A DNA stretch of 34,168 bases from the NCBI GenBank assembly GCA_024699645.1, contig JAILPE010000112.1:69385-103552 (forward strand), in the 5' to 3' direction. Below the pieces are notes generated by a model. That model ran no database searches and had not been told where the DNA came from. It worked only from the letters and a program-made list of their open reading frames with translations. Made by a program: the position numbers and the translations under genes. The stretch's first letter is position 1; the number at the start of each line of letters is the position of its first letter. This document shows, piece after piece, positions 883 to 18,754 of the stretch. Source of the DNA: Lachnospiraceae bacterium (GTDB lineage: Bacteria; Bacillota; Clostridia; Lachnospirales; Lachnospiraceae).

Positions 883-1218
883 TTAATCCGAGACTCGGAT
901 TAGCATTATTTGAGTGATAAAAAATGTTGCTTTTTGGAGAAAAAAACACATATTGAAGTGCCATAATTGGTAAAAGTTTATAATAAACCGCCGTATTACT
1001 TGTAATTCGGCGGTTTATTAGCATTATACGGGAGCCTGATAGCAAAATTTGATAGGTTCAAACATAGCAAATGAAGCTATAATTTGATAAGTGCATTTTC
1101 AATTGAATTTATTATGGATAAAGTTGTGTGCATGGATATTTAATCCGAAATCAGGTCATTTTGTTTTAAGACAGGAAAGACCCCGGATCGGAAGAATATA
1201 ATATCGGGAGGCTTTAAA
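883..1218. other. Intergenic region, 336 bases, no gene
   Basis: No convincing coding frame lies here. It holds a short hairpin (884-902, stem TAATCCGA, loop GAC, no T-run) just after the isomerase stop, a long hairpin at 981-1020, and an A+T-rich stretch at 1040-1115 that probably carries the promoter of the transporter operon. A TATAAT box is at 1078-1083 without a good -35 partner. AATTTGATA is repeated at 1046-1054 and 1081-1089, and ATAGCAAA at 1040-1047 and 1065-1072. The repeats may be regulator sites. Confidence 0.6.
981..1020 (+). terminator. Long hairpin, probable terminator after the isomerase gene
   Basis: TAATAAACCGCCG at 981-993 pairs perfectly with CGGCGGTTTATTA at 1008-1020, a 13-bp stem. 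The loop can extend the stem with ATTAC/GTAAT after one mismatch. The T-rich tail lies inside the stem rather than after it, so it could work in either direction. Confidence 0.7.
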
Positions 1219-4143
1219 GTGAAAAAGGCTAAAGGACTGATCATATTTGCTGCCGCTGTTGTTTTGATTATCGGTTTTGTTTTGATCTTGGGACTTTTTG
1301 AGGAGGATAACTTCATCAAAAAGTATGAAGGAACAGATCTTTCGTATGATGTTCGTGGACTTGGCCGTGAAAACACTTACAAGCTTTTTATGCTTGAGCA
1401 TGAGTCTTCGCCTCTCGCAACAGAAGGTTTTTCTGTTGAAGCTACAGATTATGCTCAGGCTGTTGATGTAGAAGTCAGAAATGAATGCGACGGTGTAGAG
1501 AATGTACTTTATACCGGTGACACTTCCGAAGTCACATGGGAAATTAATGCTCCGCAATCGGGACTTTATAATGTTTCTCTTAGGTATTATCCCGTACAGA
1601 GCAGAGGAGTTGAGATTGAGAGAGAGTTTAGGATAAACGGTGAAGTTCCTTTTGTCGGAGCCGAAGATCTTGCATTCTCACGTATCTGGACCGATGCTAC
1701 CGAAGTTCGTACCGATAACCGTGGTAATGAGCTCCGCCCTTCTCAGATCGAAAGATTTGAGTGGCAGGAAGCAATGTTCTCCGATTATCTCGGATATGAG
1801 ATCGAGCCTTATCGTTTTTGGCTCGATGAAGGAAAAAATACAATTACTCTTAAATCTGTAAATGAACCTGTTATCATCAAATCTATTGAATTCTTACCGA
1901 TCACGGTAAATTATACATATTCTCAGTATTCTGACGATCATAAAAATATGACTTCTTCATCCGAGTCGCTTTCATATGTCGGAAAGATCGACGGAGAGAA
2001 TGCATCCGGTCGTTCCGATGCTTCACTTTATGCTCGTTTTGACAAATCTGTTTCCAATACAGACCCTTACAGTATTACCACAACAAAGCTCAATTATATC
2101 GGCGGAGACGCATGGAAGGTTCCCGGCCAGTGGATCGAATGGGAATTCGAAGTTCCCGGCGACGGATTTTACAATATTACAATAAAGGGACGTCAGAGTT
2201 ATCAGCGAGGAGGCGTTTCTTCGAGAAAGATAACGATAGACGGGCAGTTGCCGTTTGAAGAGGCAATGGCTGTCGGCTTTGTTTATAACACAGACTGGGA
2301 TATGATCACTCTTTCGGATTCGGATGAGAAACCTTATGATTTTTATCTTACAAAGGGTAAACATACGATCCGTCTTGAGGCTACACTCGGTGATCTCGGA
2401 GAAGTCCTCAACGATCTTTCGGACAGCGTATTCAGGCTTAATCTTATTTACAGAAAGCTTATAGTACTCACCGGTACCAATCCCGACTCACACAGAGATT
2501 ATAATATCAAGAGTGTTTATCCCGACATAATCGAAGCAATGGGTCTTGAAAGCAAACGTCTTTATAAAACGGTTGATGATTATATTGCGATCACCGGTGA
2601 AAAGTCCGATCAGATAGCAAATGCGATCACACTTGCCGCACAGCTTGAACGTTTTAACAACGACCCGCGTGATATCACAAAGACTCTTAAAAATTTCAAA
2701 GAAAATATAGCAGCACTCGGAACTTCAATAAATACTATCAGTGAAAGTAAACTTGATATAGACTACATGATAGTCCAGGGTAAAGAAACCGAAAAGGTAG
2801 AGGATGATGCCGGATTTTTCTCGAATCTCTGGCATGATATCAAATCTTTCTTCGTTTCATTCTTCTACGATTACAATTCGATCGGAGATGTATATGACGA
2901 AGATGATGAAGACACTATTGAAGTTTGGCTTCTTGCCGGACGTGATCAGAATTCGATCATGAAGATGATGGTCGATGACACGTTTACACCTGAGACAGGG
3001 ATTAAAGTCAATGTTCAGCTTATTGCGGCCGATGCGCTTCTTCCCGCGGTAGTTGCAGGAAAAGGCCCCGATGTTGTACTTACGGGTAATCAGCAGGATC
3101 CCGTTAACTACGCTCTTCGTAATGCGGTTGAAGATCTTACGCAGTTTGATGATCTTGACGAGGTGCTTTCAGAGTATCCTATCAGCTCGTATCGTTCTTA
3201 TCTTTTCGAAGGCGGTATGTATGCTCTTCCCGAAACACTGAATTATAATGTATTGTTCTATCGTAAAGACATTCTTGAAGAATTCGGACTTGAGCCGCCT
3301 CAAACATGGGATGATCTTATCAATATGCTTCCCACTATCCAGGGAAACAGTATGACACTTGCCGTACCTTCTACGGAGCGTAAGATCGGTAATGTGATCA
3401 ATCCGGATCTTTCACTGCTGATCTCGATGACTTACCAGTACGGCGGTGATTTCTATGATGATGACGGTAAGAAGATCCAGATAGACAACGAGGAAAGTGT
3501 TCAGGCGTTTACAAAATACACCAGTCTGTTTGTTGATTACGGTATTCCGCTTGAGCTTGATTTTGTAACCCGTTTTCGTTCCGGAGAGGTTCCGATCGGT
3601 ATTGCGGATTATAACACATTCAATACTCTTGTCCTTTCTGCACCCGAGCTTCGCGGACTTTGGGATTTCATGCCTATTCCGGGTGTTAAGAAGGTAGATG
3701 AGAACGGAGAGGAATATATCGACAGAGCAGTGCACGGATGGGGCCAGTGCTCGATGATGATCAAAACGGATAATGAAAAGGTAAGAAACAATTCGTGGAA
3801 ATTCCTTAAGTGGTGGGCGTCGTCCGAAACACAGGTTCGATACGGACGTGAGCTTGAATCGGTTATGGGTTCCGCAGCCAGATATGCAACGGCCAATGAT
3901 GTGGCATTTAAACAGCTTGCATGGAGCGCTGATCAGATAAAGGTACTTGAAGAACAAAGAAAGTGGGCAAGAGGATTCAGAGAGATCGCCGGTGGATACT
4001 ACACCAGCCGTCACCTGACAAATGCCGTACGTAAAGTTGTAAATCAAAAGCTTGATCAGAGAGAAGTGCTTCTTGATTACACAAGAACGATCAACGAAGA
4101 GATTACCAAGAAACGTAAAGAATATGGTCTTGACACTGATTGA
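1219..4143 (+). CDS. Membrane-anchored giant solute-binding protein with two N-terminal beta-sandwich domains
   Basis: A 974-residue protein, over twice the normal length of a family 1 extracellular solute-binding protein. Residues 5-27 are a hydrophobic anchor with no lipobox cysteine, so it is probably held by an N-terminal membrane helix. Two related domains follow (about 60-230 and 235-420). Each has a GxYN...RG...R...I(N/D)G..PF core and ends in YxFxLxxGK(N/H)TI, like galactose-binding-type carbohydrate modules. Residues about 530-552 form an aromatic, amphipathic stretch (FFSNLWHDIKSFF), followed by an acidic linker. Residues 565-974 are the sugar-binding protein proper, with GKGPDVVLTG and WKFLKWWASSETQ motifs typical of the family. 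It starts at GTG 1219 with GGGAGG seven bases upstream. It is first in a tight operon with two permease genes, which should be its partners. The ligand is unknown. Confidence 0.85.
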   Translation: MKKAKGLIIFAAAVVLIIGFVLILGLFEEDNFIKKYEGTDLSYDVRGLGRENTYKLFMLEHESSPLATEGFSVEATDYAQAVDVEVRNECDGVENVLYTGDTSEVTWEINAPQSGLYNVSLRYYPVQSRGVEIEREFRINGEVPFVGAEDLAFSRIWTDATEVRTDNRGNELRPSQIERFEWQEAMFSDYLGYEIEPYRFWLDEGKNTITLKSVNEPVIIKSIEFLPITVNYTYSQYSDDHKNMTSSSESLSYVGKIDGENASGRSDASLYARFDKSVSNTDPYSITTTKLNYIGGDAWKVPGQWIEWEFEVPGDGFYNITIKGRQSYQRGGVSSRKITIDGQLPFEEAMAVGFVYNTDWDMITLSDSDEKPYDFYLTKGKHTIRLEATLGDLGEVLNDLSDSVFRLNLIYRKLIVLTGTNPDSHRDYNIKSVYPDIIEAMGLESKRLYKTVDDYIAITGEKSDQIANAITLAAQLERFNNDPRDITKTLKNFKENIAALGTSINTISESKLDIDYMIVQGKETEKVEDDAGFFSNLWHDIKSFFVSFFYDYNSIGDVYDEDDEDTIEVWLLAGRDQNSIMKMMVDDTFTPETGIKVNVQLIAADALLPAVVAGKGPDVVLTGNQQDPVNYALRNAVEDLTQFDDLDEVLSEYPISSYRSYLFEGGMYALPETLNYNVLFYRKDILEEFGLEPPQTWDDLINMLPTIQGNSMTLAVPSTERKIGNVINPDLSLLISMTYQYGGDFYDDDGKKIQIDNEESVQAFTKYTSLFVDYGIPLELDFVTRFRSGEVPIGIADYNTFNTLVLSAPELRGLWDFMPIPGVKKVDENGEEYIDRAVHGWGQCSMMIKTDNEKVRNNSWKFLKWWASSETQVRYGRELESVMGSAARYATANDVAFKQLAWSADQIKVLEEQRKWARGFREIAGGYYTSRHLTNAVRKVVNQKLDQREVLLDYTRTINEEITKKRKEYGLDTD

Positions 4144-4211
4144 TCGGTTCTTGGCCGAACGGTTCAGATAATATAGGGAGTGACGAAACGCTCTTTTCAG
4201 AGGAGGATGCT

Positions 4212-5150
4212 ATGTCATCGTTTGCTAAATCATATGTAAGTATGAAAAAGAACAACGTACGAATCGCGTGGAAGAAAGCAAAGTCAATGAAGTCTTGCTA
4301 TCTTTTCCTGCTTCCGTTCTTTGTGCTCTTTTTCACCTTCTATATATTGCCGATCTTTTCGTCAATATATTACAGCTTTACTTATTACAATATTTTGGAG
4401 CCACCGAAGTTTATATTCCTCCAAAACTATATAAATCTTATATTGCAGGATGATGTCTTCCTGATCGCGATCAAAAATACATTTGTGATCGCTGTCATAA
4501 CCGGACCTGTCGGTTATATGCTTCAGTTTGTTTGTGCCTGGTTCATAAACGAACTTCCCAAATGGCTTCGTGCCGTTGTAGTTATCCTTTTCTATTCGCC
4601 TTCGATCGCAGGAAATATATACTATATTTTCTCAATCTTCTTCAGAGGTGATGCGTATGGTTACGTCAACGGTATGCTGATCGACGTGGGGATCATTAAT
4701 GAACCGATTTTCTTCCTTACAAATCCGGATTACATGATGGGACTTATCATTGCGGTTCTGTTGTGGCTTTCAATGGGAGCCGGATTCCTCGGTTTTGTTG
4801 CCGGTCTTCAAGGTGTCGATAAAGCACAATATGAGGCGGGATATATAGACGGCGTTAAAAACAGGTGGCAGGAATTGTGGTACATAACTCTTCCGAATAT
4901 GAAGCCGATGCTTTTGTTCGGTGCCGTTATGGCGATCACTTCATCATTTGGCGTCAGTGCTCAGACCATGGCTCTTTGCGGTTATCCCAGTACGGACTAT
5001 GCAGCACGAACCATTGTTACACACCTTTATGATTACGGTTTTACCAGATTTGAAATGGGTTATGCTTCGGCCATCGCTACCATACTTTTCCTGGCGATGA
5101 TCCTTTGCAACAAGGCAATTCAGGCACTCCTCAGAAGAGTAGGCCATTGA
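4212..5150 (+). CDS. Sugar ABC transporter permease (MalF/LplB-like)
   Basis: A 312-residue inner-membrane permease with about six hydrophobic segments. The EAA loop that docks the ATPase is at about residue 208 (EAGYIDGVKNRWQELWYITLP). It belongs to the carbohydrate uptake type 1 group and should pair with the next gene. The frame is open further upstream to 4140, but ATG 4212 is chosen because GAGGAGG ends five bases before it and the N-terminus then looks normal (MSSFAKSY). The frame upstream codes for an unlikely polar leader. The gene starts about 70 bases after the large binding-protein gene and continues the operon. No ATPase gene is nearby, so it probably uses a shared MsmX-like ATPase encoded elsewhere. 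Confidence 0.9.
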   Translation: MSSFAKSYVSMKKNNVRIAWKKAKSMKSCYLFLLPFFVLFFTFYILPIFSSIYYSFTYYNILEPPKFIFLQNYINLILQDDVFLIAIKNTFVIAVITGPVGYMLQFVCAWFINELPKWLRAVVVILFYSPSIAGNIYYIFSIFFRGDAYGYVNGMLIDVGIINEPIFFLTNPDYMMGLIIAVLLWLSMGAGFLGFVAGLQGVDKAQYEAGYIDGVKNRWQELWYITLPNMKPMLLFGAVMAITSSFGVSAQTMALCGYPSTDYAARTIVTHLYDYGFTRFEMGYASAIATILFLAMILCNKAIQALLRRVGH

Positions 5151-5174
5151 TCTTATTAAGAGAGAGAGAAAAAT

Positions 5175-6065
5175 ATGAAAACGTCAACAAAGCCTTATCA
5201 TAAAAAACCGAAGATATTGCGTCGGCGCCAGCCTAACCGTTCAAGAGGAGGAGATATCGGCATCTATATTTTCCTTGCGATCATGTCCGTTATCATGGTG
5301 CTTCCGCTTTTGTTTGCCATAAATCAGTCACTTAAGCCCATGGATGAACTTTTCCGTTTCCCGCCGACATTCTTTGCAAAGAATCCCGGTTTTGACAATT
5401 TCACGGATCTGTTTGTAACCATGAATAAGTCGACTGTACCGTTCTCGCGTTACATATTCAATACATTGTTCACGACGGCGGTCGGCACGGCAGGACATCT
5501 GCTTATCGGTTCGATGGCGGCTTTTGTGCTTGCCAAATATAACTTCCCCGGAAGTAAATTCTTCTTTGGTGTGGTTGTTACAGCCCTTATGTTTACGGGT
5601 TCGATACTTATGATCCCCAATTACCTCATCATGAATTCACTCGGTTGGATAGATTCGCTTCTTGCAATCATAGTTCCGGCGTTTGCTTCACCGATGGGTG
5701 TATTCCTAATGAAACAGTTTATGGAGGGATTGCCGACGGCTCTTATAGAAGCGGCAAAAGTTGACGGTGCTTCCGAATGGTATGTATTTACCAGGATCGT
5801 AATGCCTAACGTTAAGCCTGCCTGGCTTACGATGATAATTTTTTCCGTACAGAGTCTTTGGAACAATCCGGCTTCCGTATATATATACTCCGAGGAAAAG
5901 AAAGCTCTTGTATATGCGCTTTCTCAGGTTTCTCTCGGCGGTGTTGCCAGAACCGGTCAGGCTGCGGCAGTTTCTGTTGTTACTATGATCGTTCCGATCT
6001 TGTTGTTCATTATTTCCGAGAGCCAGATACTTGAAACGATGGCAAGCTCGGGTATTAAGGATTGA
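5175..6065 (+). CDS. Carbohydrate ABC transporter permease (MalG/YtcP-like)
   Basis: A 296-residue inner-membrane permease, partner of the preceding gene. It has a basic N-terminus, a first membrane segment at about 29-50, and an EAA loop at about residue 192 (EAAKVDGASEWYVFTRIVMP). Its ending, LETMASSGIKD, matches the usual MalG-type C-terminus, which contacts the ATPase. The gene begins 24 bases after the previous stop behind a weaker AGAGAGAG ribosome site. Together with the large membrane-anchored binding protein it completes the first importer of the locus, apart from an ATPase. Confidence 0.92.
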   Translation: MKTSTKPYHKKPKILRRRQPNRSRGGDIGIYIFLAIMSVIMVLPLLFAINQSLKPMDELFRFPPTFFAKNPGFDNFTDLFVTMNKSTVPFSRYIFNTLFTTAVGTAGHLLIGSMAAFVLAKYNFPGSKFFFGVVVTALMFTGSILMIPNYLIMNSLGWIDSLLAIIVPAFASPMGVFLMKQFMEGLPTALIEAAKVDGASEWYVFTRIVMPNVKPAWLTMIIFSVQSLWNNPASVYIYSEEKKALVYALSQVSLGGVARTGQAAAVSVVTMIVPILLFIISESQILETMASSGIKD

Positions 6066-6075
6066 GGTGGCGCGT

Positions 6076-7572
6076 ATGAAGAGATTGGTAGTTTTTATGG
6101 CTCTTGTCCTTGTACTGGCCGCGGTTTCACCGGCTGTTGTTTCGCAAGCCGATTCAGGTTATTCATATAACTATGATTTTTGGGGTGAGGAAATACACGC
6201 CCCCAACCCTTATGCAGTAAAAAAAGCTCTTACTCATGTTGAACTCGGACTTGATAAAAAGCTTTCCAAAGCTCAGGGTTTATTTGTCAAAGATAATCTT
6301 ATCTATATTTGCGATACAGGAAATAACAGGATAATCGTACTTGAATATGCGGACGAAGAATACAAGGTTAAGGAAATCATCGAGTCTTTTGAGGGAGCTG
6401 AGATCAATACGTTTAGTTCTCCGAGTGATATCTTTGTTACCGATGAATATTACTTCATCGCAGATACCGAGAATAACAGGATATTAAAACTCACCAAAGA
6501 TCTTAAGTTTGTTATGGATTTTACCAAACCCGATGATATTAACTTTGATCAGAGTATTACATTTTTACCTTCGAAACTTATCGTTGACGGTGCGGAGCGT
6601 GTGTTCTGTCTCGTAAAACGTGTAAATAAGGGTATTGTTAAATACGAAAATGACGGAAAGTTTAACGGTTTTGTCGGAGCTACTCCGGTAACATATGATT
6701 TGTTTGATTATATCTGGAAGACTTGGATAGCTTCCGATGCTCAGGCCGATGCCATGTCGGATTTTGTACCTACAGAGTATGATAATATCGCAGTCGATCA
6801 TGACGGATTTATGTATGTCGTAACCACAAACTTTTATGAGGGATCACTTATTGACGGTTCGGTCGATCCCGTCAGAAAGCTTAATTCTCTCGGAAATGAT
6901 ATTTTGATACAAAACGGTGATTGGGTTGTTGTCGGCGATATTAACTGGAATGATCAAGGTGTTTATACCGGCTCATCCAGAATTATCGATGTTACAGCAC
7001 TCGATGACGGAACATATTTTGCGCTTGATCGTACAAGAGGAAGAATCTTCGGATATGACGATCAGGGCAATATTCTTTGCTGTTTCGGTGGAAACGGTAA
7101 CAAAGACGGTTATTTCAGAATGCCCACCGCTATCGAACATATGGGGCACGATCTTCTTGTCCTTGATTCTCAGGATGCTCAGTTAACGATATTTACACCG
7201 ACGTATTACGGTAAAAAGATATTCTCCGCTATCTACGAATACCAACAGGGACGTTACGATAAGTCCGCTGACGAGTGGAGAGAAGTTCTTATGGTCAACG
7301 GAAACAATGAGCTTGCGTATAAGGGAATCGGTCGAGCGCTCTTAAGACAGAACAAATATGAAGAGGCGATGGATTACTTCAAGATAAAATATGATGACGA
7401 CAATTACGGTGATGCATTCCAGCTTTACCGAAAACAATGGGTTGAGGATCATGTCGTACTAATATTTATAATTATTTTGCTGGTACTTGTTGTACCGCTC
7501 TTGATAGGCAGAATAAAGAAAGTCAGATGGGAGGTGAAGGCATATGAAAACGAAAGCAAGAAGAATAGTTGA
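6076..7572 (+). CDS. Extracytoplasmic NHL-repeat / TPR protein with C-terminal membrane anchor
   Basis: A 498-residue protein of unknown precise role. A signal peptide (residues 1-25, ending near VVSQADSG) sends it out of the cytoplasm. NHL-type propeller repeats follow, including DTGNNRI at about 80-86, DTENNRI at about 130-136 and a later pair around LDRTRGRIFGY and LDSQDAQLTIF. A short TPR-like helical unit lies at about 400-445 (YEYQQGRYDKSADEW, ALLRQNKYEEAMDYF), and a hydrophobic helix at about 460-480 is followed by a basic tail. The propeller should sit outside the cell, tethered by the C-terminal helix. ATG 6076 is chosen behind GAGGTGG; the upstream in-frame ATG at 6031 lies inside the previous gene. 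The position between permease genes suggests an accessory or docking part of the transporter. Similar genes are, from memory, neighbours of YIP1 and DUF5696 genes in Paenibacillus and Clostridia. Confidence 0.8.
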   Translation: MKRLVVFMALVLVLAAVSPAVVSQADSGYSYNYDFWGEEIHAPNPYAVKKALTHVELGLDKKLSKAQGLFVKDNLIYICDTGNNRIIVLEYADEEYKVKEIIESFEGAEINTFSSPSDIFVTDEYYFIADTENNRILKLTKDLKFVMDFTKPDDINFDQSITFLPSKLIVDGAERVFCLVKRVNKGIVKYENDGKFNGFVGATPVTYDLFDYIWKTWIASDAQADAMSDFVPTEYDNIAVDHDGFMYVVTTNFYEGSLIDGSVDPVRKLNSLGNDILIQNGDWVVVGDINWNDQGVYTGSSRIIDVTALDDGTYFALDRTRGRIFGYDDQGNILCCFGGNGNKDGYFRMPTAIEHMGHDLLVLDSQDAQLTIFTPTYYGKKIFSAIYEYQQGRYDKSADEWREVLMVNGNNELAYKGIGRALLRQNKYEEAMDYFKIKYDDDNYGDAFQLYRKQWVEDHVVLIFIIILLVLVVPLLIGRIKKVRWEVKAYENESKKNS

Positions 7573-8224
7573 TTTCTTTACAAACAGAGCGGCATATGAC
7601 AGATTTTTCAAGAGCCTTCGCTATGCATTATATGTAATCCTTCATCCGTTTGACGGTTTTTGGGATCTTACTCACGAAAAGAGGGGCAGTCTTGCCGCTG
7701 CAAATTTTATTTTGATACTTTCACTTCTCACGTGTGTATTCAGACTGGAATTCACGACATTTCAGTTTATCAAGGTGAATCTTGAACGTGCGAATTTCCT
7801 TGTTGAGATGCTCGGAATCCTGCTTCCGTTTATCATATTTGTTGTTACGAACTGGGCACTTACAACATTGTTTGACGGAAAAGGAACACTTAAGGATGTT
7901 TGGATTGCTTCGGCATATGCCATGACACCTTATCCGCTTATTGTTATTCCGAATACCATCCTCAGTAATTTCCTCGCGGAAGAAGAAGATACTTTTAATT
8001 ATTTCTTCCATGATTTTTCTCTGGTATGGTCGGCACTGCTTTTTATATCGGCGATCATGATGGTTCATGCTTACTCGATAGGAAAAACGATGATCTGTAT
8101 TATATTTACGTTTGTCGGAATGGCAGTCGTTATTTTCCTGCTACTTTTGTTCTTTAGTTTGATCAGTGATGCCGGAGCTTATTTCTATTCACTGTATAAA
8201 GAAGTAATCTTTAGAATTTATTAG
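7544..8224 (+). CDS. YIP1-family polytopic membrane protein
   Basis: A 226-residue protein with a basic, aromatic N-terminal stretch (about 1-35, containing ILHPFDGFWDLTHEKRGS) and about five hydrophobic helices. The HPFDGFWDL motif and helix pattern fit bacterial YIP1-type proteins of unknown biochemical role. The start overlaps the end of the NHL gene by 29 bases and has an excellent GGGAGGTGA site six bases upstream, so translation of the two is probably coupled. That implies joint production and possibly a physical complex at the membrane. It carries no catalytic motif I can recognise. Confidence 0.72.
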   Translation: MKTKARRIVDFFTNRAAYDRFFKSLRYALYVILHPFDGFWDLTHEKRGSLAAANFILILSLLTCVFRLEFTTFQFIKVNLERANFLVEMLGILLPFIIFVVTNWALTTLFDGKGTLKDVWIASAYAMTPYPLIVIPNTILSNFLAEEEDTFNYFFHDFSLVWSALLFISAIMMVHAYSIGKTMICIIFTFVGMAVVIFLLLLFFSLISDAGAYFYSLYKEVIFRIY

Positions 8225-8243
8225 TTTTAACGCAGTCGGATCG

Positions 8244-8278
8244 ATCCCGCTCCTAAAATTGTTTTAGGGAAGTGGGAT
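8244..8278 (+). other. Intra-operon hairpin before the DUF5696-like gene
   Basis: ATCCCGC pairs with GTGGGAT (one G-T pair), then after a small internal loop CCTAAAA pairs with TTTTAGG around a TTG loop. No T-run follows, so this is more likely an RNA stability or processing element than a terminator. Confidence 0.5.
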
Positions 8279-8303
8279 ATGACAGATAGAGGAGGATGTA
8301 CCT

Positions 8304-10859
8304 GTGGAAGGAAAGAGATCCTGGATTAAAAGCATACTGAATATATTCATCCCAATAGCTGTTTTGGGCATTGTAGTGATGCTTTTATTTAAGATTCAGC
8401 CTGAGGAGGTCGAACCTATTGAGATAGAGATCAGGGGTGGATCAATCGGTGAAGGCATGGCAATACTTGAGAATGACGATCTTATCTTTACTATGGATCG
8501 TGCTACTTCGCGTTTCTCTGTGACAGATAAGGCCACCGGAGTTGTTTGGGATTCTAATCCCGAAAATGCAGACAACGATCCGCTTGCTCCGACGATAGAC
8601 AAAAAGGCAAATCTCAAGTCGACGCTTTACATTACATACGGTAATGTGAACGGTATAATGACCACTTACAATAACAGTACATACAGCATTGACAAGGGGA
8701 TCTTTGATATTGTCGAGAACAAAGACTCAGTAGTTGTAAATTATACGATCGGTAATACAGAAAAAGAGTATAAGATACCGCTTGCGCTTTCGGAGAAGGA
8801 TTTTAAAGCCATCACGAAAAATATGGATAAGAAAGCTTCTAAGCAGGTAAAAGAGTATTACAGAAAAACAGATATAAACAATCTTCGTGCTTCGGATAAC
8901 AAAGAGGATCTTCTTGCAAGATATCCCGATCTTGCGGATATGAAGCTTTATATTCTCCGTGACGGAGTTGCACAACACTTAAAAGCAACAATCGAAACCT
9001 ATTTTTGGAATGCCGGATATACAGAAGAGCAATATCAGGCTCATTTGGCACGTTATTCGACAAAAAAGAGCGAAGACATACCACTTTTTAACATAAGCGT
9101 TGAATATAAGCTTGACGGAAGAGATCTCGTTGTTTCTGTTCCGATGGATAAGATTGAATACAAACCCGATTATCCTCTTGTAAACATTGAATTACTTCCT
9201 TATTTTGGTGCAGGCGGTACGGAAGATCAGGGATTTATCGTGTTACCCGAAAGCAGCGGTGCGATAATAGAGTTTAATAACGGAAGATCGGATCAAAATC
9301 CTTATTATGCAAATGTATACGGTTGGGATTATGCATCATCAAGAACTTCGGTTGTTACCGAGACGAGAAACTCATTCCCCATGTTCGGTCTTTCAAAGAA
9401 CGGTGCATCTTTCCTGTGCATGCTTGAAGACGGTGCTTCATACGGTAATATAAATGCCGATGTCAGTGGTCGATTCGACGGTTATAACCATGTTGATGCC
9501 GGTTATTCGATCGTACATTATGAGTCTTATGATGTTACGGAAAAATCTAATGCTACATTTTATGTTTATGAAGATAGTATTCCGGCTCAAATGATCTCTC
9601 AGAGATATCGTTTCGGAGATGCTGATAATTACAGTGATATGGCTGCTGTCTACAGAAATTATCTTCTTGAGAGATATCCGAATCTCGGATCGAAGAAGAG
9701 CGATAAGATGCCCGCTGTTATTGAGGTTATAGGCGCTATAGACAAAGTACAGCAGACCGCGGGAATACCTTATAAGCAGCCGCTTGAGCTTACTACTTAC
9801 GATGAGACTGTCGAGATCGTCGATGAACTGAAAAATCTCGGGGTTGATGATTTTGACCTGAAACTTACCGGTGCGGTAAATGACGGCGTTAAACATTATG
9901 TATTCACTGATGTTGATACGGTATCACGTCTGGGTGGGAAGAGCGATTTTAAGGATATGCTTGAAAATCTCAAACAGAGAAATATTAAAGTATATCTTGA
10001 GGGTCAGACGGACTTTGCCTATGATTCAGGTTGGAGTGACGGATACATCGGTTTCAGAGACGGTGCTAAATTTGTTTCAAGAGAACAGGCCGAGCTTTAT
10101 GATTATTCGTTCGTATGGTACGGCCAAGAGGATTATAACGATCCGTATTATCTTGTTAAACCTTCATACAAGAAAGAATGTTTTGATGAATTTAAGTCAT
10201 TTACCGATGAATATCAGATAGGAATGGCTCTCAGAAATACAGGCTACCTTCTGAACAGTGACTATAATCCGAAGGATAAAGTTACGAGAGAGGAAGCCAA
10301 GAAGCTTTCTGAAGAGATACTTTCCGATGCAGCCGAATACGGTACGATCGTTAATCATGCAAATGATTACGCACTTCAATATGCCGATGTAGTTACATCG
10401 ATGGATATCAGTAATTCGAATATGGCAATTATCGATTATGATATACCGTTCTATGAGATGGCTATACACGGTCTTGTAGATTATACGGGAGTTCCTATCA
10501 ACCTTTCGGAAGACTTTGAATATGAGATACTTAAATCGGCCGAGTTTGGTGCCGGGTTAGCCTTCACCTTTATGAGATGTTCTCCCGATAGGATTCAGGA
10601 AACGCTGTATTCCGAGTACTTCGGCGGTTCATTTGATCTGTGGAAAGATAAAGCCGCACAGTTATATAAGCGTTTTAAGAACGATTTTGATGATGTTTCG
10701 GATAAAAAGATGATAAGTCATAAGATTGACGAAAACAACATCAGGATAACAGAGTATGAAAACGGTACAAAAGTTTATGTAAATTATGAGTACAAAGATA
10801 TCGAAACAGACGGGGTGAAAGTTCCCGCCAGAGACTTCGCAGTAAAGAGAGGTGAGTGA
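8304..10859 (+). CDS. DUF5696-like membrane-anchored protein, probable glycosidase-like fold
   Basis: An 851-residue protein. Residues about 8-30 form an N-terminal membrane anchor without a clear signal cleavage site, so the rest should lie outside the cell. A large beta-rich region (about 45-460) is followed by a stretch with barrel-like alternation (about 470-760, including GVDDFDLKLTGAVNDG, NIKVYLEGQTDFAYDSGW and GTIVNHANDYALQYADVV). The C-terminal beta domain ends NGTKVYVNY...VKVPARDFAV, an ending I associate with glycoside hydrolases of clan-like TIM-barrel families. I recognise the overall pattern as DUF5696, a family of unknown function found beside sugar ABC transporters. The start is GTG 8304, eight bases after AGAGGAGG. 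It may trim glycans at the surface before import. Catalytic residues are not known; acidic residues in the barrel part are candidates. Confidence 0.75.
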   Translation: MEGKRSWIKSILNIFIPIAVLGIVVMLLFKIQPEEVEPIEIEIRGGSIGEGMAILENDDLIFTMDRATSRFSVTDKATGVVWDSNPENADNDPLAPTIDKKANLKSTLYITYGNVNGIMTTYNNSTYSIDKGIFDIVENKDSVVVNYTIGNTEKEYKIPLALSEKDFKAITKNMDKKASKQVKEYYRKTDINNLRASDNKEDLLARYPDLADMKLYILRDGVAQHLKATIETYFWNAGYTEEQYQAHLARYSTKKSEDIPLFNISVEYKLDGRDLVVSVPMDKIEYKPDYPLVNIELLPYFGAGGTEDQGFIVLPESSGAIIEFNNGRSDQNPYYANVYGWDYASSRTSVVTETRNSFPMFGLSKNGASFLCMLEDGASYGNINADVSGRFDGYNHVDAGYSIVHYESYDVTEKSNATFYVYEDSIPAQMISQRYRFGDADNYSDMAAVYRNYLLERYPNLGSKKSDKMPAVIEVIGAIDKVQQTAGIPYKQPLELTTYDETVEIVDELKNLGVDDFDLKLTGAVNDGVKHYVFTDVDTVSRLGGKSDFKDMLENLKQRNIKVYLEGQTDFAYDSGWSDGYIGFRDGAKFVSREQAELYDYSFVWYGQEDYNDPYYLVKPSYKKECFDEFKSFTDEYQIGMALRNTGYLLNSDYNPKDKVTREEAKKLSEEILSDAAEYGTIVNHANDYALQYADVVTSMDISNSNMAIIDYDIPFYEMAIHGLVDYTGVPINLSEDFEYEILKSAEFGAGLAFTFMRCSPDRIQETLYSEYFGGSFDLWKDKAAQLYKRFKNDFDDVSDKKMISHKIDENNIRITEYENGTKVYVNYEYKDIETDGVKVPARDFAVKRGE

Positions 10860-10864
10860 CAAAG

Positions 10865-11773
10865 ATGGCTAAGCTGAAGAAAAAATCAAAGATGTCGCTT
10901 GCCAATAAGAAAGCAATGATCGGATATTTGTTTATACTTCCGTTTGTGCTTGGTTTCTTGTTGTTTATGGTCAAGCCTCTTATCCAATCGATCATTATGT
11001 CGTTTTCTGATGTTCAGGTAGGAGCAGAAGGATTCGAAAATGTTTATGCGGGTCTTGATAATTATAAAAGAGCGCTTACGATTGATCCGAATTTTTCACG
11101 AATGCTTCTTGAAGAAGTATACAAAATGGTCTTCAATTCGCTTGCTACCATCATTTTCAGCTTCTTCATAGCACTACTTCTTAATCAGAAGTTTAAAGGC
11201 AGAGCGTTTGTAAGAGCGATATTCTTCCTTCCCGTTATTTTTTCATCCGGTGTCATTGTCGGTCTTGAATACAACAATACACTGCTTTCGGGAATGAAGG
11301 AGATTATGGAGGAATCGTCTTCATCCGGCATTGCCGATACTCTTGAGATGATCCTTTCAAGTACCGATCTGGCAAACGGTTTTGTTGAGACGATCATATC
11401 GCTGGTTAATTCGGTATACGATATAGCCATTGCCTCCGGAATTCAGATCATCATATTCCTTTCGGCACTTCAGACGATACCCAAGAGTATGTATGAAGCC
11501 GCTGACATTGAGGGATGTACCAAGTGGGAGAGTCTTTGGAAGATCACTTTTCCTATGATAAGCTCCATGTTCCTTGTTAACTGGATATATACCATCATCG
11601 ACTTTTTCATGAAGTCAGATAATCAGGTAATACAGCAGGTTCAGACTGAGGTTACACGTAATCTCGACTTTGGTTACGGTTCGGCGCTGTCTTGGATTTA
11701 TTTCGGCGTTGTTATTGTCTGGATAGGTATATCTTCGCTAATAATCTCGAGGGTGGTGTACTATTATGAGTAA
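10865..11773 (+). CDS. Sugar ABC transporter permease, second importer (MalF-like)
   Basis: A 302-residue inner-membrane permease with a basic N-terminus (MAKLKKKSKM), first helix at about 20-40, and an EAA loop at about residue 211 (EAADIEGCTKWESLWKITFP). It carries an unusually long polar insertion between helices (about 130-170, GMKEIMEESSSSGIADTLEM). A GTG at 10856 overlaps the previous stop, but the ribosome site AGGTGA lies too close to it, so ATG 10865 is chosen. It is only slightly related to the first permease of the locus, which argues for a separate importer rather than a recent duplication. It pairs with the next gene, whose start it overlaps by eight bases. Confidence 0.9.
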   Translation: MAKLKKKSKMSLANKKAMIGYLFILPFVLGFLLFMVKPLIQSIIMSFSDVQVGAEGFENVYAGLDNYKRALTIDPNFSRMLLEEVYKMVFNSLATIIFSFFIALLLNQKFKGRAFVRAIFFLPVIFSSGVIVGLEYNNTLLSGMKEIMEESSSSGIADTLEMILSSTDLANGFVETIISLVNSVYDIAIASGIQIIIFLSALQTIPKSMYEAADIEGCTKWESLWKITFPMISSMFLVNWIYTIIDFFMKSDNQVIQQVQTEVTRNLDFGYGSALSWIYFGVVIVWIGISSLIISRVVYYYE

Positions 11774-12773
11774 ATCAAAGGCAGTAGCGGAAGGTAGAAG
11801 ATCCTTCAGTGAGAGAAACAGACTGAGCGGCGGGTATCTGCTTAAGAAGACCGCCGGCAGGGTCACCTTTAAGATCCTTAGATTTGTGCTTATCTTTGGG
11901 CTTTGCTTTATGATCCTTGAACCGATCGTAAACAAGTTCTGTGTAAGTATCATGACTGAGAAGGATCTGTATGATACTACTATAAATATTCTGCCGCGTC
12001 ATCTGACGACCGGTAATTATTCGGTTGTAATGGAACTGATGGATTTCTGGAAAGCGTTGTTTAATTCGCTTTGGATTTCAATTGCAGTATCCATAGTTCA
12101 GATAGCTGCATGTACTCTGGCAGGCTACGGATTCGCGAGATTTAAATTCCCGCTTAAGAAATTCTGGTTCGCGTGTGTTATACTTATCATCCTTATTCCG
12201 CCCCAGACTATTTCATCACCCCTTTACCTTCACTTCAGATTCTTTGATGTGTTCGGTATATTTAATGCGGTAACGGGATCCCCCATCAACCTCAGAGGAT
12301 CCGTAATTCCTTATTTCCTTATGTCTGCAGGATGTATGGGACTTAAGAACGGTCTTTATATCTTCCTCGTTCGTCAGTTCTTCCGCGGTATTCCCAAAGA
12401 ACTTGAGGAAGCAGCGTATGTTGACGGTTGCGGAACCCTTAAAACATTCGTAAGGATAATGCTTCCGGATGCAAGACCTATCCTTACTTCCTGTTTCCTG
12501 TTCTCGTTTGTATGGCAGTGGACCGACAGTTTTTATTCGGCACTCTTTATCGGAGGAAAGAAATTACTCTCTACCGGCCTTGCTTCACTTGCCGATAATT
12601 TTACGAATTATTTTCAGATCGTTAATCAAAGAACAGGACTTGCGTCCGAGGCTTTACTTCAGCAGATGAATGCAACGGGTGTATTGCTTGTTGTTACACC
12701 CATTATCTTACTTTATCTGATCGCGCAGAAGGGCTTTGTTGAGTCGCTTTCTTCGACAGGTATCAAGATGTAG
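11766..12773 (+). CDS. Carbohydrate ABC transporter permease, second importer (MalG-like)
   Basis: A 335-residue inner-membrane permease. The N-terminal 45 residues are polar and basic, longer than usual, and are followed by about six helices. The EAA loop is at about residue 215 (EAAYVDGCGTLKTFVRIMLP), and the C-terminus VESLSSTGIKM is the standard MalG ending. The ATG overlaps the stop of the preceding permease (ATGAGTAA arrangement), and GAGGGTGGTG lies upstream, so the two subunits are translationally coupled. It presumably serves the lipoprotein binding protein encoded next. Confidence 0.92.
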   Translation: MSKSKAVAEGRRSFSERNRLSGGYLLKKTAGRVTFKILRFVLIFGLCFMILEPIVNKFCVSIMTEKDLYDTTINILPRHLTTGNYSVVMELMDFWKALFNSLWISIAVSIVQIAACTLAGYGFARFKFPLKKFWFACVILIILIPPQTISSPLYLHFRFFDVFGIFNAVTGSPINLRGSVIPYFLMSAGCMGLKNGLYIFLVRQFFRGIPKELEEAAYVDGCGTLKTFVRIMLPDARPILTSCFLFSFVWQWTDSFYSALFIGGKKLLSTGLASLADNFTNYFQIVNQRTGLASEALLQQMNATGVLLVVTPIILLYLIAQKGFVESLSSTGIKM

Positions 12774-12779
12774 GGTCGC

Positions 12780-12808
12780 TTGACGCTTTTTACCTACTGA
12801 ATTATAAT
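12780..12808 (+). promoter_or_regulatory. Internal promoter before the lipoprotein binding-protein gene
   Basis: TTGACG at 12780-12785 and TATAAT at 12803-12808 are 17 bases apart, a near-consensus vegetative promoter. Its position right after the last permease stop would let the lipoprotein be made in excess. A leader hairpin (ATTCGC, GAAA loop, GCGGAT at 12843-12858) lies downstream. Confidence 0.8.
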
Positions 12809-12901
12809 GTTGATTAGTGCCGAAGTGATTCGACACTGATGTATTCGCGAAAGCGGATCATAAATTTAATGCACCCTTGTGGTGAGAAGGAGAGAGGTTT
12901 T

Positions 12902-14416
12902 ATGAAAAAAACAAGTAAGATTGTAGCACTTTTCATGATCTTGGTTCTTGTTCTTTCATGCGTGGCATGTTCTTCAAGCGACGAGAAAAAGAATGATGAT
13001 GCTACAAAAACGGAGACAGGCTCTAAGGAAAATAACGATACCAAAGAGACTGAAAAGAATGATGCTAACGATGCAGATAACACCGTTCAGACTCCCGATA
13101 CAACTGATGATGATGCAGATGTTGAAGAGGAAGAAGAGGAAGAAGAGGAAGATGAATATCCCGATGTTATCCTCGGAGCTGACGGTAAGCCTGTAGATCT
13201 TGGCGGAATGGAAGTTAAGATCGCAGCTTGGTGGGCTAATCCTGATCCCGATGAGTCTACTGCATACGGTGAGGCTACAAAGAATTATCGTGATTGGATC
13301 CAGAAGACTTATAACTTCACTATTAAGGAAGAGTCTATAGGTAGCTGGAATGATTATCCTTCACTCCTTACAAACTTCTGTACAACAGGTGGCGATGAAA
13401 ACTATGTTTTCGTTTGCGACGAGAGAAGTTTCAGTGGTTTCAGATCAGGTCTTTACAAGGATCTTGCAACTCTTGACTGCCTTGACTTTACAGAGGAGAA
13501 GTGGGACAAGGGCGCTAAGGATCTTCTCAGACTCGGTGATTCCATCTATGGTATGAGAGCAGACAGAACAGAGCCTCGTGGAGGTATCTTCTTCAATAAG
13601 AGACTTCTTACCGAAGCAGGTATCGATCCTGAATCACTTTACGATATGCAGGCAGCAGGCACGTGGGATTGGGCAGCATTTGAAGATCTCTGCGCTAAGC
13701 TTACCCGTGATACAAACGGCGATGACATCCCCGATGTTTACGCTATGTGTTCTACAAACTATGACTTTATGAAGCCTTGTCTTGCTTCTAACAACGCTTT
13801 CGTTATTGAGCGTGATGCAGACGGCAAATTTGTGAATGCTACAGGTACGGATAACTTCATCCAGGCTTGGGATTGGGCTAAGGATATGCGTGCTAAATAT
13901 CAGATGCCTGCTCCCGAAGGTGCTCAGTACGACTTCCCTTATACAGCATTCCTTAATGCTGAAGTTGCACTTCAGGCAGCAGAGGAGTACAGAGTATCCA
14001 ATAACCAGGAACTTCCCGATGATTTTGGATTTGTAGTATTCCCTAAGGGACCTGCAGTTTCTGATTATACTTGCTATTCATACGATCACCTTCGTGTAAT
14101 CCCCGCTATCTATGATGATGAGAGAGCATGGAAGATCGCATTTGCGTTCAACCTCTATACAAATCCTACACCCGGTTATGAGGATGCTGAAGATTGGAAG
14201 ACAGGTTACTATCCTCAGTTCAGAGATACACGTGCTGTAGATGAGACTCTTGAGATCCTTACAAGGAATCCTATTCCTCAGCTCTTCCCTCTTGTTGACA
14301 ACGTTAACCGTGACAACTCTTACTTCTGGAACATTGATTCCAAGACAGGTCAGGAGCAGTATGAAGAGATGAAGGATGAGATCGATTACTATGTAGGTGT
14401 TGCAAACAGCTATTGA
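12902..14416 (+). CDS. Lipoprotein sugar-binding protein of the second ABC importer
   Basis: A 504-residue secreted lipoprotein. The signal sequence ends in LSCVACSSS, with Cys20 or Cys23 as the lipidated residue. Residues about 24-90 form a flexible, highly charged tether with a run of glutamates (about 77-87) before YPDVILGADG. The body is a family 1-type solute-binding protein, with segments such as GGIFFNKRLLTEAGIDPESLYDMQAAGTWDWAAFEDLCAKL typical of the hinge and ligand region. An upstream in-frame ATG at 12839 is ignored because AAGGAGAGAGG directly precedes ATG 12902 and the signal peptide starts there. Codon choice looks more biased (many AAG, CTT and GAT codons) than in the permeases, consistent with high expression from the internal promoter. 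The ligand is unknown. Confidence 0.9.
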   Translation: MKKTSKIVALFMILVLVLSCVACSSSDEKKNDDATKTETGSKENNDTKETEKNDANDADNTVQTPDTTDDDADVEEEEEEEEEDEYPDVILGADGKPVDLGGMEVKIAAWWANPDPDESTAYGEATKNYRDWIQKTYNFTIKEESIGSWNDYPSLLTNFCTTGGDENYVFVCDERSFSGFRSGLYKDLATLDCLDFTEEKWDKGAKDLLRLGDSIYGMRADRTEPRGGIFFNKRLLTEAGIDPESLYDMQAAGTWDWAAFEDLCAKLTRDTNGDDIPDVYAMCSTNYDFMKPCLASNNAFVIERDADGKFVNATGTDNFIQAWDWAKDMRAKYQMPAPEGAQYDFPYTAFLNAEVALQAAEEYRVSNNQELPDDFGFVVFPKGPAVSDYTCYSYDHLRVIPAIYDDERAWKIAFAFNLYTNPTPGYEDAEDWKTGYYPQFRDTRAVDETLEILTRNPIPQLFPLVDNVNRDNSYFWNIDSKTGQEQYEEMKDEIDYYVGVANSY

Positions 14417-16387: not shown

Positions 16388-17818
16388 ATGAAGAATATAT
16401 TTCTAAACAAAAGATCTGTTATGTTAATAACTGTCATTTCTTTGATTGTTCTCTGTTGTGCCGGTTGTTCCGAAAAACTTGTTCCTGCCGAACCTTACTC
16501 CGGTTCTGAAATAGATAAAGCACAGGACACTGATTCCAATGCGGACAGCACCGCTGCAGGAGAAGAAGGCGATATTTCCAATGCGGACAGTCCTGCTGAA
16601 GGAGAGGACGGCGATACTTTAAATACGGGCAGCACAGGTGTAGAAACAAACCGAGATAATTCTATGGCTGCTATAGATAAGGGTTTCGAAGATATCAAAG
16701 GAGACAGTGAATTGAAAGAAATTGTCCATTTGGATGATGATGTTGAAGGCCTAACGGGTGCGGTTGCATTTGTCAGAAAGTTACGTTTGGGCTGGAATCT
16801 TGGAAATACAATGGATGCGACGAGCAGTGTATCGGGAGGTGCAAATCTTAATCTCGAGACATCGTGGTGCGGAGTAAAAACCACTTCCGAAATGATAGAT
16901 ACTTTGAAGGATGCCGGATTTAAATCAATCCGCGTTCCCGTATCGTGGCATAACCATGTTGACGGTGAATTTAACATTGATGAGGCATGGCTTAACAGAG
17001 TAAAAGAGATAGTAGATTACGTTATCGATAACGATATGTATTGCACTGTCAATATTCATCATGACAATGCGAAGGAATTCTTTTACCCGACGACGGAGTA
17101 TCTTGAACAGTCGAAAAAGTATGTCAGGAGAATATGGGAACAGGTTGGTGAAACCTTTAAGGATTATGACGATCATCTGATATTTGAATCGTTAAATGAG
17201 CCGAGACTTGTTGGGACTTCCAACGAATGGAGTCTATCCAATAATGATATGTGTCGTGATGCGGTAAAATGTATAAACGAACTCAATCAGGTCTTTGTTG
17301 ATACAATACGTTCACAAGGAAGTTACAATTCCGAAAGATATTTGCTTGTGCCCGCATATGCCGCGCAGTGGGGAGCTGCTGTAAGCGACGAATTTGTTTT
17401 ACCCACAGACACTGCCGACAATAAGATACTCCTCGAAGTACATGCTTATTCGCCCTACAATTTTGCTCTTGCGGCACCCGGTGATTCGAACAGTACGGAT
17501 CTTTTCAGTTCAGGCAATAACTCAAGCACGGCGGAAATCAATAATATGATGCTAAAGTTAAAGCTAAACTTTGTTGATAAGGGGATTGGTGTTGTGATCG
17601 ACGAGTTCGGAGCGAGAGATAAGTCGGGAAATCTTGAATCAAGAACCGATTATGCCGGATATTATGTGAAAAAGGCGCGTGAATTCGGAATAACTTGCTA
17701 TTGGTGGGACAATAACGTATTCTTTGGATCGGGTGAAAGATTCGGGATATTTGACAGAAGATCCAACAGCATCAGATATCCCGAAATAGTGGAAGCACTT
17801 GTAAATAATTGTCAATGA
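16388..17818 (+). CDS. GH5 endo-beta-glucanase/cellulase, lipoprotein
   Basis: A 476-residue surface enzyme that should cleave internal beta-1,4 links in cellulose, glucomannan or similar glucans with retention. The signal peptide ends in a lipobox (LCCAGC, Cys27), so it is anchored by lipid. Residues about 45-100 are a low-complexity tether with a 14-residue repeat. The catalytic domain (about 125-476) contains LGWNLGNTMDA, RVPVSWHNH, the acid/base Glu271 in ESLNEP and the nucleophile Glu406 in VIDEFGA, followed by WWDN. These are hallmarks of GH5, best matching the bacterial GH5_2/GH5_4-like endoglucanases. ATG 16388 follows GAAAGGA. It is monocistronic, with a structured leader RNA and a shared terminator. 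Confidence 0.92.
   Translation: MKNIFLNKRSVMLITVISLIVLCCAGCSEKLVPAEPYSGSEIDKAQDTDSNADSTAAGEEGDISNADSPAEGEDGDTLNTGSTGVETNRDNSMAAIDKGFEDIKGDSELKEIVHLDDDVEGLTGAVAFVRKLRLGWNLGNTMDATSSVSGGANLNLETSWCGVKTTSEMIDTLKDAGFKSIRVPVSWHNHVDGEFNIDEAWLNRVKEIVDYVIDNDMYCTVNIHHDNAKEFFYPTTEYLEQSKKYVRRIWEQVGETFKDYDDHLIFESLNEPRLVGTSNEWSLSNNDMCRDAVKCINELNQVFVDTIRSQGSYNSERYLLVPAYAAQWGAAVSDEFVLPTDTADNKILLEVHAYSPYNFALAAPGDSNSTDLFSSGNNSSTAEINNMMLKLKLNFVDKGIGVVIDEFGARDKSGNLESRTDYAGYYVKKAREFGITCYWWDNNVFFGSGERFGIFDRRSNSIRYPEIVEALVNNCQ
16534..16659 (+). repeat. 42-bp coding repeat in the GH5 linker
   Basis: TTCCAATGCGGACAG occurs at 16534 and 16576, and a degenerate third copy follows 42 bases on. The units encode DSNADSTAAGEEGD, ISNADSPAEGEDGD and TLNTGSTGVETNRD. 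Confidence 0.75.
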
Positions 17819-17823
17819 TAAAA

Positions 17824-17864
17824 GTGATCTTCCCTGTTTAAACAAGGAAGATCACGATTTTTAT
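17824..17864. terminator. Bidirectional terminator between GH5 and AraC genes
   Basis: GTGATCTTCC (17824-17833) pairs with GGAAGATCAC (17846-17855). T-rich tails follow on both strands, serving both converging genes. Confidence 0.9.
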
Positions 17865-18754
17865 TCATGAGAATCCGAAAGATCAAGGTCGTAACTTCTG
17901 ATCAGGCTTTTATACTCGGTAGGACTGATCTTTTTGATCGACCTGAAAGCACGATTGAATGTGGAAAGACTTTTGTAGCCGCAGGTAGTGGCAACCTCAG
18001 TTGTCGATACATTCGGATATATCAAAAGCTTCTCGGCGTGACCTATTCGTTTCTGATTAAGATAATCAGTGAAATTGACGCCGGAAAACTGTTCAAATCT
18101 TTTGGAAAACTCAGACGGAGTGAGACCGATCATATCGGCAAGCTTTTTGCTTGTGAGGTCTGATGAAAAATTCCAGCTGATATAATTGCTCAGCGCAAGA
18201 AATTTATTAGCATATTCATGCTGTTTCTCGGGCGGAAGATCGGGAAAGAACGTTTTTGTCTCAAAGTTGGCTCTGCCGATAGTAACAAAAAACTTTATTA
18301 TGAGAGAAAACAATATCGGATCTTCATATGCGGTTTCCTGGAAAAACTCATATTCGATATCTTTAAGACAGGATGTGAGAATTTCAGCGGTTTTGGGATC
18401 TTCGCTTGCTTTGATATGTCTGTAATGGTGGATGGACTCGAGGATGGAGTTCATGCCCTGGAGACTTGAAAAAAGTGAATAATCAAAAAGTGTTATAAGA
18501 CGTTCACCTTCATCGGGAGCATAAAGAGTATGAAGCTCGCCGGGTGCAATGATAAAGACGTCTCCGGGATTGATCCTGTGACGGATCCCGTCACAGAGTA
18601 CATCGTAGTAATTAACATAAGGCATGATGATTTCAACGGAAGTATGCCAATGAGTGGCATAGTCTTCGTTTTGAACATTATGGTAGACACGTATCCACTT
18701 CATTCTCGGAAGTGCAAGTGTATTGTTATCTTGTACAACGTATGGATTGTTCAT
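17861..18754 (-). CDS. AraC-family transcriptional regulator (first of two paralogues)
   Basis: A 297-residue DNA-binding protein. The N-terminal half is a cupin-like sensor domain (RVYHNVQNEDYATHWHTSVEIIMP, then GDVFIIAPGELHTLYAPDEGERL), and the C-terminal 100 residues hold two helix-turn-helix motifs (LADMIGLTPSEFSKRFEQFSG; EVATTCGYKSLSTFNRAFRSIKKISPTEY). This is the usual layout of sugar-responsive activators. The frame is open upstream to 18805, but the best GGAGG (18760-18764 on the complement) sits five bases from the ATG ending at 18754, so that start is taken. It is divergent from the esterase gene and probably controls it and its own promoter. A close paralogue lies at 31103-31978. 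Confidence 0.9.
   Translation of the reverse strand: MNNPYVVQDNNTLALPRMKWIRVYHNVQNEDYATHWHTSVEIIMPYVNYYDVLCDGIRHRINPGDVFIIAPGELHTLYAPDEGERLITLFDYSLFSSLQGMNSILESIHHYRHIKASEDPKTAEILTSCLKDIEYEFFQETAYEDPILFSLIIKFFVTIGRANFETKTFFPDLPPEKQHEYANKFLALSNYISWNFSSDLTSKKLADMIGLTPSEFSKRFEQFSGVNFTDYLNQKRIGHAEKLLIYPNVSTTEVATTCGYKSLSTFNRAFRSIKKISPTEYKSLIRSYDLDLSDSHE

Follow-up and report, generated by a model that had tools for sequence, protein, structure and literature searches.

How Gram-positive fibre degraders handle large branched glycans without SusCD is the question raised by a locus of a Lachnospiraceae bacterium (assembly GCA_024699645.1, hereafter genome G000). Passages of PMC5320581 leave the holding and import of such glycans to carbohydrate-binding modules (CBM). 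The locus lies at 1219-14416 of the window, i.e. the whole stretch of 34,168 nucleotides analyzed from contig JAILPE010000112.1, and consists of nine genes of the same strand (+) encoding SBPa, TMa1, TMa2, NHL/TPR, YIP1, DUF5696, TMb1, TMb2 and SBPb, SBP being solute-binding proteins and TM permeases of ATP-binding cassette (ABC) type. All nine frames listed in an earlier note on this DNA were confirmed, as were their order and single strand; the note spoke of eight genes, which we correct to nine. Sequence comparisons lead us to a probability of about 0.55 that this locus encodes an apparatus dedicated to capturing and importing glycans in Bacillota that degrade plant fibre, working with a shared ATPase.

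Conservation of the locus

Searching PF18952 (DUF5696) in 299 genomes of the phylum gave 35 genomes at E <= 0.001, of which 28 exceeded the cut-off and 27 reached E < 1e-100. The 27 strong carriers belong to 11 numbered families and contain 47 scored places, with a maximum of four per genome. Altogether, 61 loci were examined: the window, 40 of the 46 other places in the 299 genomes, four loci from named records and 16 of the 21 strong places found outside G000 in a sample of 60 genomes of the window's own family, 13 of which encode DUF5696 at E < 1e-100. Close copies, with a DUF5696 protein 81-82% identical, occur in three of the named records (two Lachnospiraceae and one uncultured Clostridia), the copy of the fourth being distant (28% identity). 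No DUF5696 relative was confirmed in viral contigs.

Within one to seven genes of DUF5696 (range by gene) and on the same strand, YIP1 is found in 59 of the 61 loci, NHL in 57 and the downstream permeases TMb1 and TMb2 in 58 each, while the upstream arm is nearby in 40 (TMa1), 39 (TMa2) and 38 (SBPa). When strict neighbours were scored in the first 45 loci, YIP1 was present in 43 (one contig end, one absence), NHL in 41 (three ends, one absence), TMb1 in 43 (two absences), TMb2 in 43 (one end, one absence) and SBPa in 23 (16 contig ends, six absences). The sole NHL miss (L075, genome G255) is an artefact of frame picking, the NHL profile matching there. In another locus (L110), TMb1-TMb2 lie 5' of SBPa rather than 3' of DUF5696.

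Across the 299 genomes, an NHL-YIP1 profile (E <= 1e-30) matched 28, namely the 27 DUF5696 carriers and G230. The latter encodes a 284-aa NHL-like frame (L161:7682-8536) that has a contig end on its 5' side, neither YIP1 nor DUF5696 downstream, and a match to only the first 199 of the 702 profile positions; SBPa has no match in this genome. G230 is a real exception to the co-occurrence, in one odd genome. A profile of the N-terminal part of SBPa (E <= 1e-10) matched 34 genomes, including all 27 carriers (G099 with a fragment). The other matches are in G100 and G143, without DUF5696 or NHL-YIP1, and in five genomes of family f15. G100 and G143 are uninformative as exceptions because the contigs carrying their SBPa genes (3.8 and 4.3 kb) stop within TMa1. 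In the f15 genomes (G007, G051, G089, G119 and G146), which have no strong DUF5696, the matches are partial (4.6e-29 to 3.7e-44) and concern other proteins of other lengths (e.g. L167:7178-8812).

Counted as raw genome numbers, with kinship among genomes ignored, the association of these genes is strong and, their order being repeated from genome to genome, more than chance. The idea that they travel together is thus borne out by a conserved neighbourhood and, the odd G230 aside, the middle genes do not occur independently of the transporters in any of the 27 strong carriers.

Two modules in one locus

NHL and YIP1, split in the window, form a single fused protein in 34 loci, and at least six switches between the two states are needed on the DUF5696 tree. 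A permease tree was built from 93 sequences (40 TMa1, 46 of the 58 TMb1 and seven others) by a short search and has some long branches. In it, TMa1 and TMb1 each fall on one side of a branch with a Shimodaira-Hasegawa-like approximate likelihood ratio (SH-aLRT) of 100. They are dedicated permease clades. Furthermore, the pairwise identities of seven proteins run parallel over 36 loci and 622 pairs (Pearson 0.85-0.95, Spearman 0.70-0.90). DUF5696 identity is 21-36% in seven within-genome copy pairs, versus 26% (median) over the whole set of pairs. Since copies of the same genome are as divergent as all pairs, these copies are old and the block has been inherited as a unit.

This block is made of two modules: arm A (SBPa, TMa1 and TMa2) and core B (NHL/TPR-YIP1, DUF5696, TMb1, TMb2 and a swappable binding protein). 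The arm A permeases are more constant (median identity 0.51 and 0.48) and core B is more variable (TMb1 0.35, TMb2 0.36, YIP1 0.29 and DUF5696 0.26). Core B frequently lacks an adjacent arm A in families f45 and f59, where full loci are found too (L162, L168), and L163 and L164 have arm A without core B. Because core B and arm A each occur separately, the middle genes belong with TMb1 and TMb2. We refine accordingly the earlier suggestion that the middle proteins are made with the transporters, the upstream arm being able to lie elsewhere.

Such separate occurrences would also be expected from two ordinary CUT1 importers, clustered through co-regulation and devoted to two products of one glycan, with NHL-YIP1 and DUF5696 helping the second only (e.g. 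to fold or assemble) rather than forming a joint machine. The coupling loop kept in both permease pairs agrees with this explanation. However, SBPa is encoded somewhere in all 27 strong carriers and most full loci link the two halves in a constant order, so that we consider two independent importers rather unlikely.

Permeases and energy source

The E, G and P of the EAA coupling loop are invariant in the 40 TMa1, 38 TMa2 and 58 TMb1 sequences; in TMb2, G is present in 58/58 and P in 50/58. The locus has the solute-binding protein (SBP_bac_1 in both SBPa and SBPb) and the two permeases with an EAA loop that are expected of a CUT1 importer. An uncoupled TMb1 had been considered when a first loop pattern matched 26 of the 58 sequences, and was rejected on the alignment.

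There is no ATPase gene within the locus. OB_MalK, indicative of a MalK-type ATPase, was found in all ten other carriers tested and in 25 of the 31 family-sample genomes, G000 being among the six without it. In G000, a MalK-like ATPase (48% identical) adjoins another importer, and eight of the 21 PF00528 matches fall in the two copies of the system carried by this genome.

NHL and TPR repeats frequently mediate protein contacts and AraC regulators are encoded nearby. Core B could then be mainly a sensor, whose permeases, NHL/TPR and YIP1 proteins report glycan occupancy to regulators while arm A alone imports. Nevertheless, the ATPase-coupling loop is kept in all four permeases and no signalling domain is among the Pfam matches of the nine proteins; a sensor role appears very improbable.

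DUF5696, a glycosidase-like protein

A 40-row DUF5696 profile matched DagB (5opq, 1.2e-14), 8rzg (3.7e-14) and NagBb (5wzn, 2e-9) in the PDB. Homology to glycoside hydrolase (GH) family GH129 is therefore found through 5wzn; the Pfam GH129 model is not among the Pfam matches of the window protein. The homology to NagBb and DagB (described in parts of PMC5698469) extends over parts of the N-terminal domain, the barrel and the C-terminal domain. Unlike these enzymes, transporter-linked DUF5696 has a membrane anchor, a transporter locus and no fixed catalytic pair. An N-terminal transmembrane segment was detected by a simple hydropathy scan in 55 of the 61 DUF5696 proteins and was absent, by the same scan, from the relatives L091 and L092. 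These two DUF5696-like frames measure 560 and 584 aa, and L091 adjoins a permease pair. Proteins of this type are possibly the enzyme stock ancestral to the transporter subunit.

The mutated residues of DagB and Asp435 of NagBb are given in sections of PMC5698469. The inferred catalytic columns, 645 and 684, were mapped through MAFFT alignments, preferred because hhalign to one GH129-like protein covered the C-terminal part alone. Column 645, at a strand end, holds D in 24/61 proteins, and column 684 holds N in 16, E in 15 and D in 12. The window copy has N at both, not the catalytic Asp and Glu of GH129, an assignment that depends on the alignment. D with E is found in 1/61 and D with D in 9/61. 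On the tree, D645 changes at least ten times, six changes being forced by supported branches. R662 and N733 are invariant (61/61). We conclude that the fold of a glycosidase was recruited as a membrane-anchored subunit, probably a non-catalytic one at least in the window copy, whose features agree better with holding the glycan or acting as a scaffold than with trimming. Trimming, as put forward in the earlier note, is unsupported because Asn occupies both inferred catalytic positions of the window protein, leaving neither with a carboxylate.

DUF5696 might instead trim chains for the importer, as an active, membrane-bound exo-glycosidase whose active site has shifted. The homology to NagBb and DagB would agree with this, as would D645 in 24 proteins, the 10/61 that pair this D with an acid (D or E) at 684, and the conservation of the acids D653, D711 and E747 (in 47, 52 and 57 of 61, respectively). 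The two Asn of the window copy and the repeated changes of residue 645 make such an enzyme improbable.

SLC3 heavy chains, i.e. rBAT and 4F2hc, have a membrane-anchored, glycosidase-like, non-catalytic ectodomain that partners a transporter. Their likeness to DUF5696 is one of analogy, not kinship, SLC3 being eukaryotic, GH13-like and involved in amino-acid transport.

A possible glycan-capture apparatus

In the glycan-capture apparatus that we favor, arm A would be a CUT1-type importer whose membrane-tethered SBPa, with its CBM35-like modules, could hold a chain. Core B would add a second CUT1-type pair (TMb1 and TMb2) and, as accessory subunits in the membrane, an NHL/TPR-YIP1 scaffold and the anchored DUF5696 ectodomain, which would bind or orient the glycan and not cut it. 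The binding protein serving core B would be exchangeable: SBPb in the window, a CBM65 or ricin-type lectin protein in certain other loci. Both permease pairs would share one MsmK-type ATPase, encoded outside the locus, in G000 presumably too, and neighbouring hydrolases would finish imported or released oligosaccharides. These parts may assemble into a physical complex able to handle long chains or polymers.

In favor of the apparatus are the shared gene order and co-occurrence, the NHL-YIP1 fusions, the TMa1 and TMb1 clades, the parallel divergence, the kept coupling loops, the MalK-type ATPase of other carriers, the CBM35-like SBPa, a GH129-like DUF5696 lacking a fixed catalytic pair and the setting of copies beside different glycan genes. 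Several observations weigh against it. One obligate complex sits poorly with the separate encoding of arm A and core B in some loci. G000, a genome 93% complete, gave no OB_MalK match. The nine DUF5696 proteins with D at both columns and the conserved acids would suit an enzyme. Furthermore, the alignment-dependent mapping recovers D and E in both columns in only two of five glycosidase-like comparison proteins: L091 and L092 have D/E, L093 and L094 have G/E, and the L160 protein has D/V. In L093 and L094 a YLD motif follows at a distance of four columns, a position occupied by E in 13, Q in 9 and D in 8 of the 61 transporter-linked proteins. AlphaFold2, run on shallow alignments, gave a mean predicted local distance difference test (pLDDT) of 35.0 for DUF5696 (5 rows) and 31.6 for SBPa (4 rows), and these models were left unused. 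Some scanned neighbours have no link with glycans, for example EF-G in L069, HEAT repeats in L057, LtrA in L066 and a match to an S55 peptidase in L073.

Binding proteins

The C-terminal binding domain of SBPa has Lin1841 as its best PDB match (5e-15). Of 24 members scored for the N-terminal half (E <= 0.01), 10 match CBM35 and 12 Golvesin_C, the match being weak in the window. For residues 302-401 the PDB search returned a cycloisomaltooligosaccharide glucanotransferase (6.7e-10), for residues 101-178 a module of a GDSL enzyme (0.0016), which we take to be CBM35 modules in both cases; coiled-coil proteins are among the PDB matches of residues 436-500. Among 38 SBPa, 30 have an N-terminal transmembrane segment and two a lipobox.

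The closest solved relative of SBPb is an arabino-oligosaccharide-binding protein. In the 58 loci with TMb2, the next gene is SBPb-labelled in 29 and the second one in seven; 21 have another gene on the same strand and one a gene on the opposite strand. Three scanned genes without the SBPb label also encode solute-binding proteins (L096, L103 and L106). Furthermore, a single clade of the tree contains five loci from the family Lachnospiraceae in which a CBM65 protein adjoins TMb2 (L036, L097, L098, L100 and L102). With three to five CBM65 stretches (e.g. L036:5027-6967), these are perhaps stand-alone surface glycan-binding proteins.

Neighbouring genes and substrates

GH115 and GH67 are alpha-glucuronidase families. 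Their presence beside the locus (Table 1) therefore points to glucuronoxylan, fragments of which are the likely substrate in the window. The two copies of the window genome differ in their neighbours: GH115, GH67, GH5 and GH3 here versus CBM65 and GH36 in L036. The scan covered part of the neighbouring genes across loci. It revealed, for instance, GH106 with a pectate lyase (L041), apiosidase-like, GH31 and GH42 proteins (L045), a PcRGLX-like protein (L069), GH42 (L043, where one scanned neighbour protein had no match), GH43 (L060 and L068), GH5 (L055), GH26 with CBM27 (L064), GH31 (L104), PF10091 (L047) and a ricin-type lectin (L039). Recurring beside different plant-fibre enzymes, the system is therefore probably an adaptable machine for complex sugars.

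Amid the glycan genes of the window, three genes at 24039-26528 encode a pyruvate/2-oxoacid:ferredoxin oxidoreductase (POR_N, TPP_enzyme_C and POR). A CbiA/ParA-like frame (22891-23691) lies 5' of them and overlaps the end of the GH3 frame.

Comparison with known systems

The sections of PMC5320581 on Gram-positive polysaccharide utilization loci (gpPULs) define them by a polysaccharide-degrading enzyme, a transport system and a regulator together in a locus. The window assembles GH5, GH3, GH115, GH67, two permease pairs and two AraC genes, and shares with gpPULs an ABC transporter in a single locus and the absence of SusC/SusD; no NHL-YIP1 or DUF5696 component is described in those sections. 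The Athe_2052-2054 CUT1 importer of Anaerocellum bescii, as presented in parts of PMC12710961, also has a solute-binding protein, two permeases with coupling loops and glycan enzymes nearby; its shared MsmK ATPase is encoded away from the locus, as would be the case here. The window differs in its two permease pairs, CBM35-like SBP, NHL/TPR-YIP1 and DUF5696.

The Bacteroidetes SusCD system is alike by analogy, with a fixed uptake core and binding or enzyme parts that vary with the glycan. It is an outer-membrane transporter, whereas the permeases here are inner-membrane ABC proteins, and neither SusC nor SusD families are among the Pfam matches of the nine proteins. By this analogy, the locus could be a previously undescribed Gram-positive counterpart of SusCD, whose fixed membrane core (NHL/TPR-YIP1 scaffold, pseudo-glycosidase DUF5696 and ABC permeases) would capture long glycans and be re-targeted by swapping the binding protein and enzymes; we advance this tentatively, at somewhat less than even odds. 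A YIP1 protein of bacteria and an ectodomain resembling a glycosidase would then gain a role as ABC importer subunits. DUF5696 is unmentioned in the open-access literature searched, most subscription journals lying outside that search, and combinations of YIP1, NHL and transport terms retrieved no description of the system from open-access literature. Term searches found neither Yip1 nor NHL in the main texts of PMC5320581, PMC6344614, PMC3899296, PMC12710961, PMC8579813 and PMC11212667.

The conserved, multi-copy core ties members of uncharacterized function to the step of glycan holding and import. If our reading is true, DUF5696 beside NHL-YIP1 would be a sequence marker for Bacillota glycan-uptake loci, whose substrates could be guessed from neighbouring genes.

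Gene calls and other features of the window

Table 1. Features of the locus and its surroundings (window coordinates)
Feature	Description	Coordinates	Strand
Hairpin	terminator-like on either strand; separates the upstream isomerase-like frame from SBPa; found by pattern match only	883..903	.
SBPa	N-terminal transmembrane anchor, CBM35-like N-terminal half, C-terminal solute-binding domain	1219..4143	+
TMa1	ABC permease; start probably ~4212	4140..5150	+
TMa2	ABC permease	5175..6065	+
NHL/TPR	N-terminal hydrophobic segment, C-terminal transmembrane segment; start probably ~6076	6031..7572	+
YIP1	YIP1-domain membrane protein	7544..8224	+
DUF5696	N-terminal transmembrane anchor and GH129-like ectodomain; Asn at inferred catalytic positions 645 and 684	8304..10859	+
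TMb1	ABC permease	10856..11773	+
TMb2	ABC permease	11766..12773	+
SBPb	lipoprotein-type binding protein; start probably ~12902	12839..14416	+
GH5		16388-17818	
AraC		17861-18805	-
GDSL		19020-20714	
GH3		20820-22997	
GH115		26709-29606	
AraC		31103-32062	-
GH67	cut by window end	32279-34168	

The Pfam matches of the nine proteins include SBP_bac_1 at residues 579-872 of SBPa (974 aa; E 2.3e-23) and in SBPb (E 5e-6), and BPD_transp_1 in all four permeases, weakly in TMb1 (24.6 bits versus a cut-off of 26.4). The NHL/TPR protein matches NHL (E 5.2e-8) and TPR (E 1.1e-5, under its cut-off), the YIP1 protein belongs to the Yip1 family (E 2.1e-11, 44.5 bits versus a cut-off of 28.6) and the DUF5696 protein matches DUF5696 (E 1.8e-177).

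The genes are closely packed, and their longest frames overlap at 4140-4143, 6031-6065, 7544-7572, 10856-10859 and 11766-11773. Two of the overlaps reported earlier, 7544-7572 and 11766-11773, were exact; the one placed at 10857-10865 was wrong, since DUF5696 ends at 10859 and TMb1 starts either at GTG 10856 (4-nt overlap) or at ATG 10865 (no overlap). The starts of TMa1, NHL and SBPb are probably later than those of their longest frames, as judged from relatives and signal peptides.

No Rfam match reached the gathering threshold in the window, and its 39 promoter-like sites are not above chance (shuffle mean 38.2); one such site (11/12) lies at 12780-12808, in the gap 5' of SBPb. Upstream of the locus, a frame at 1-882, cut by the window start, matches the C-terminal domain of L-fucose isomerase (5.9e-35) and, weakly, an NCBIfam sulfoquinovose isomerase (55 bits versus a cut-off of 700). 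A 494-aa frame occupies the same place in L032 and L033.

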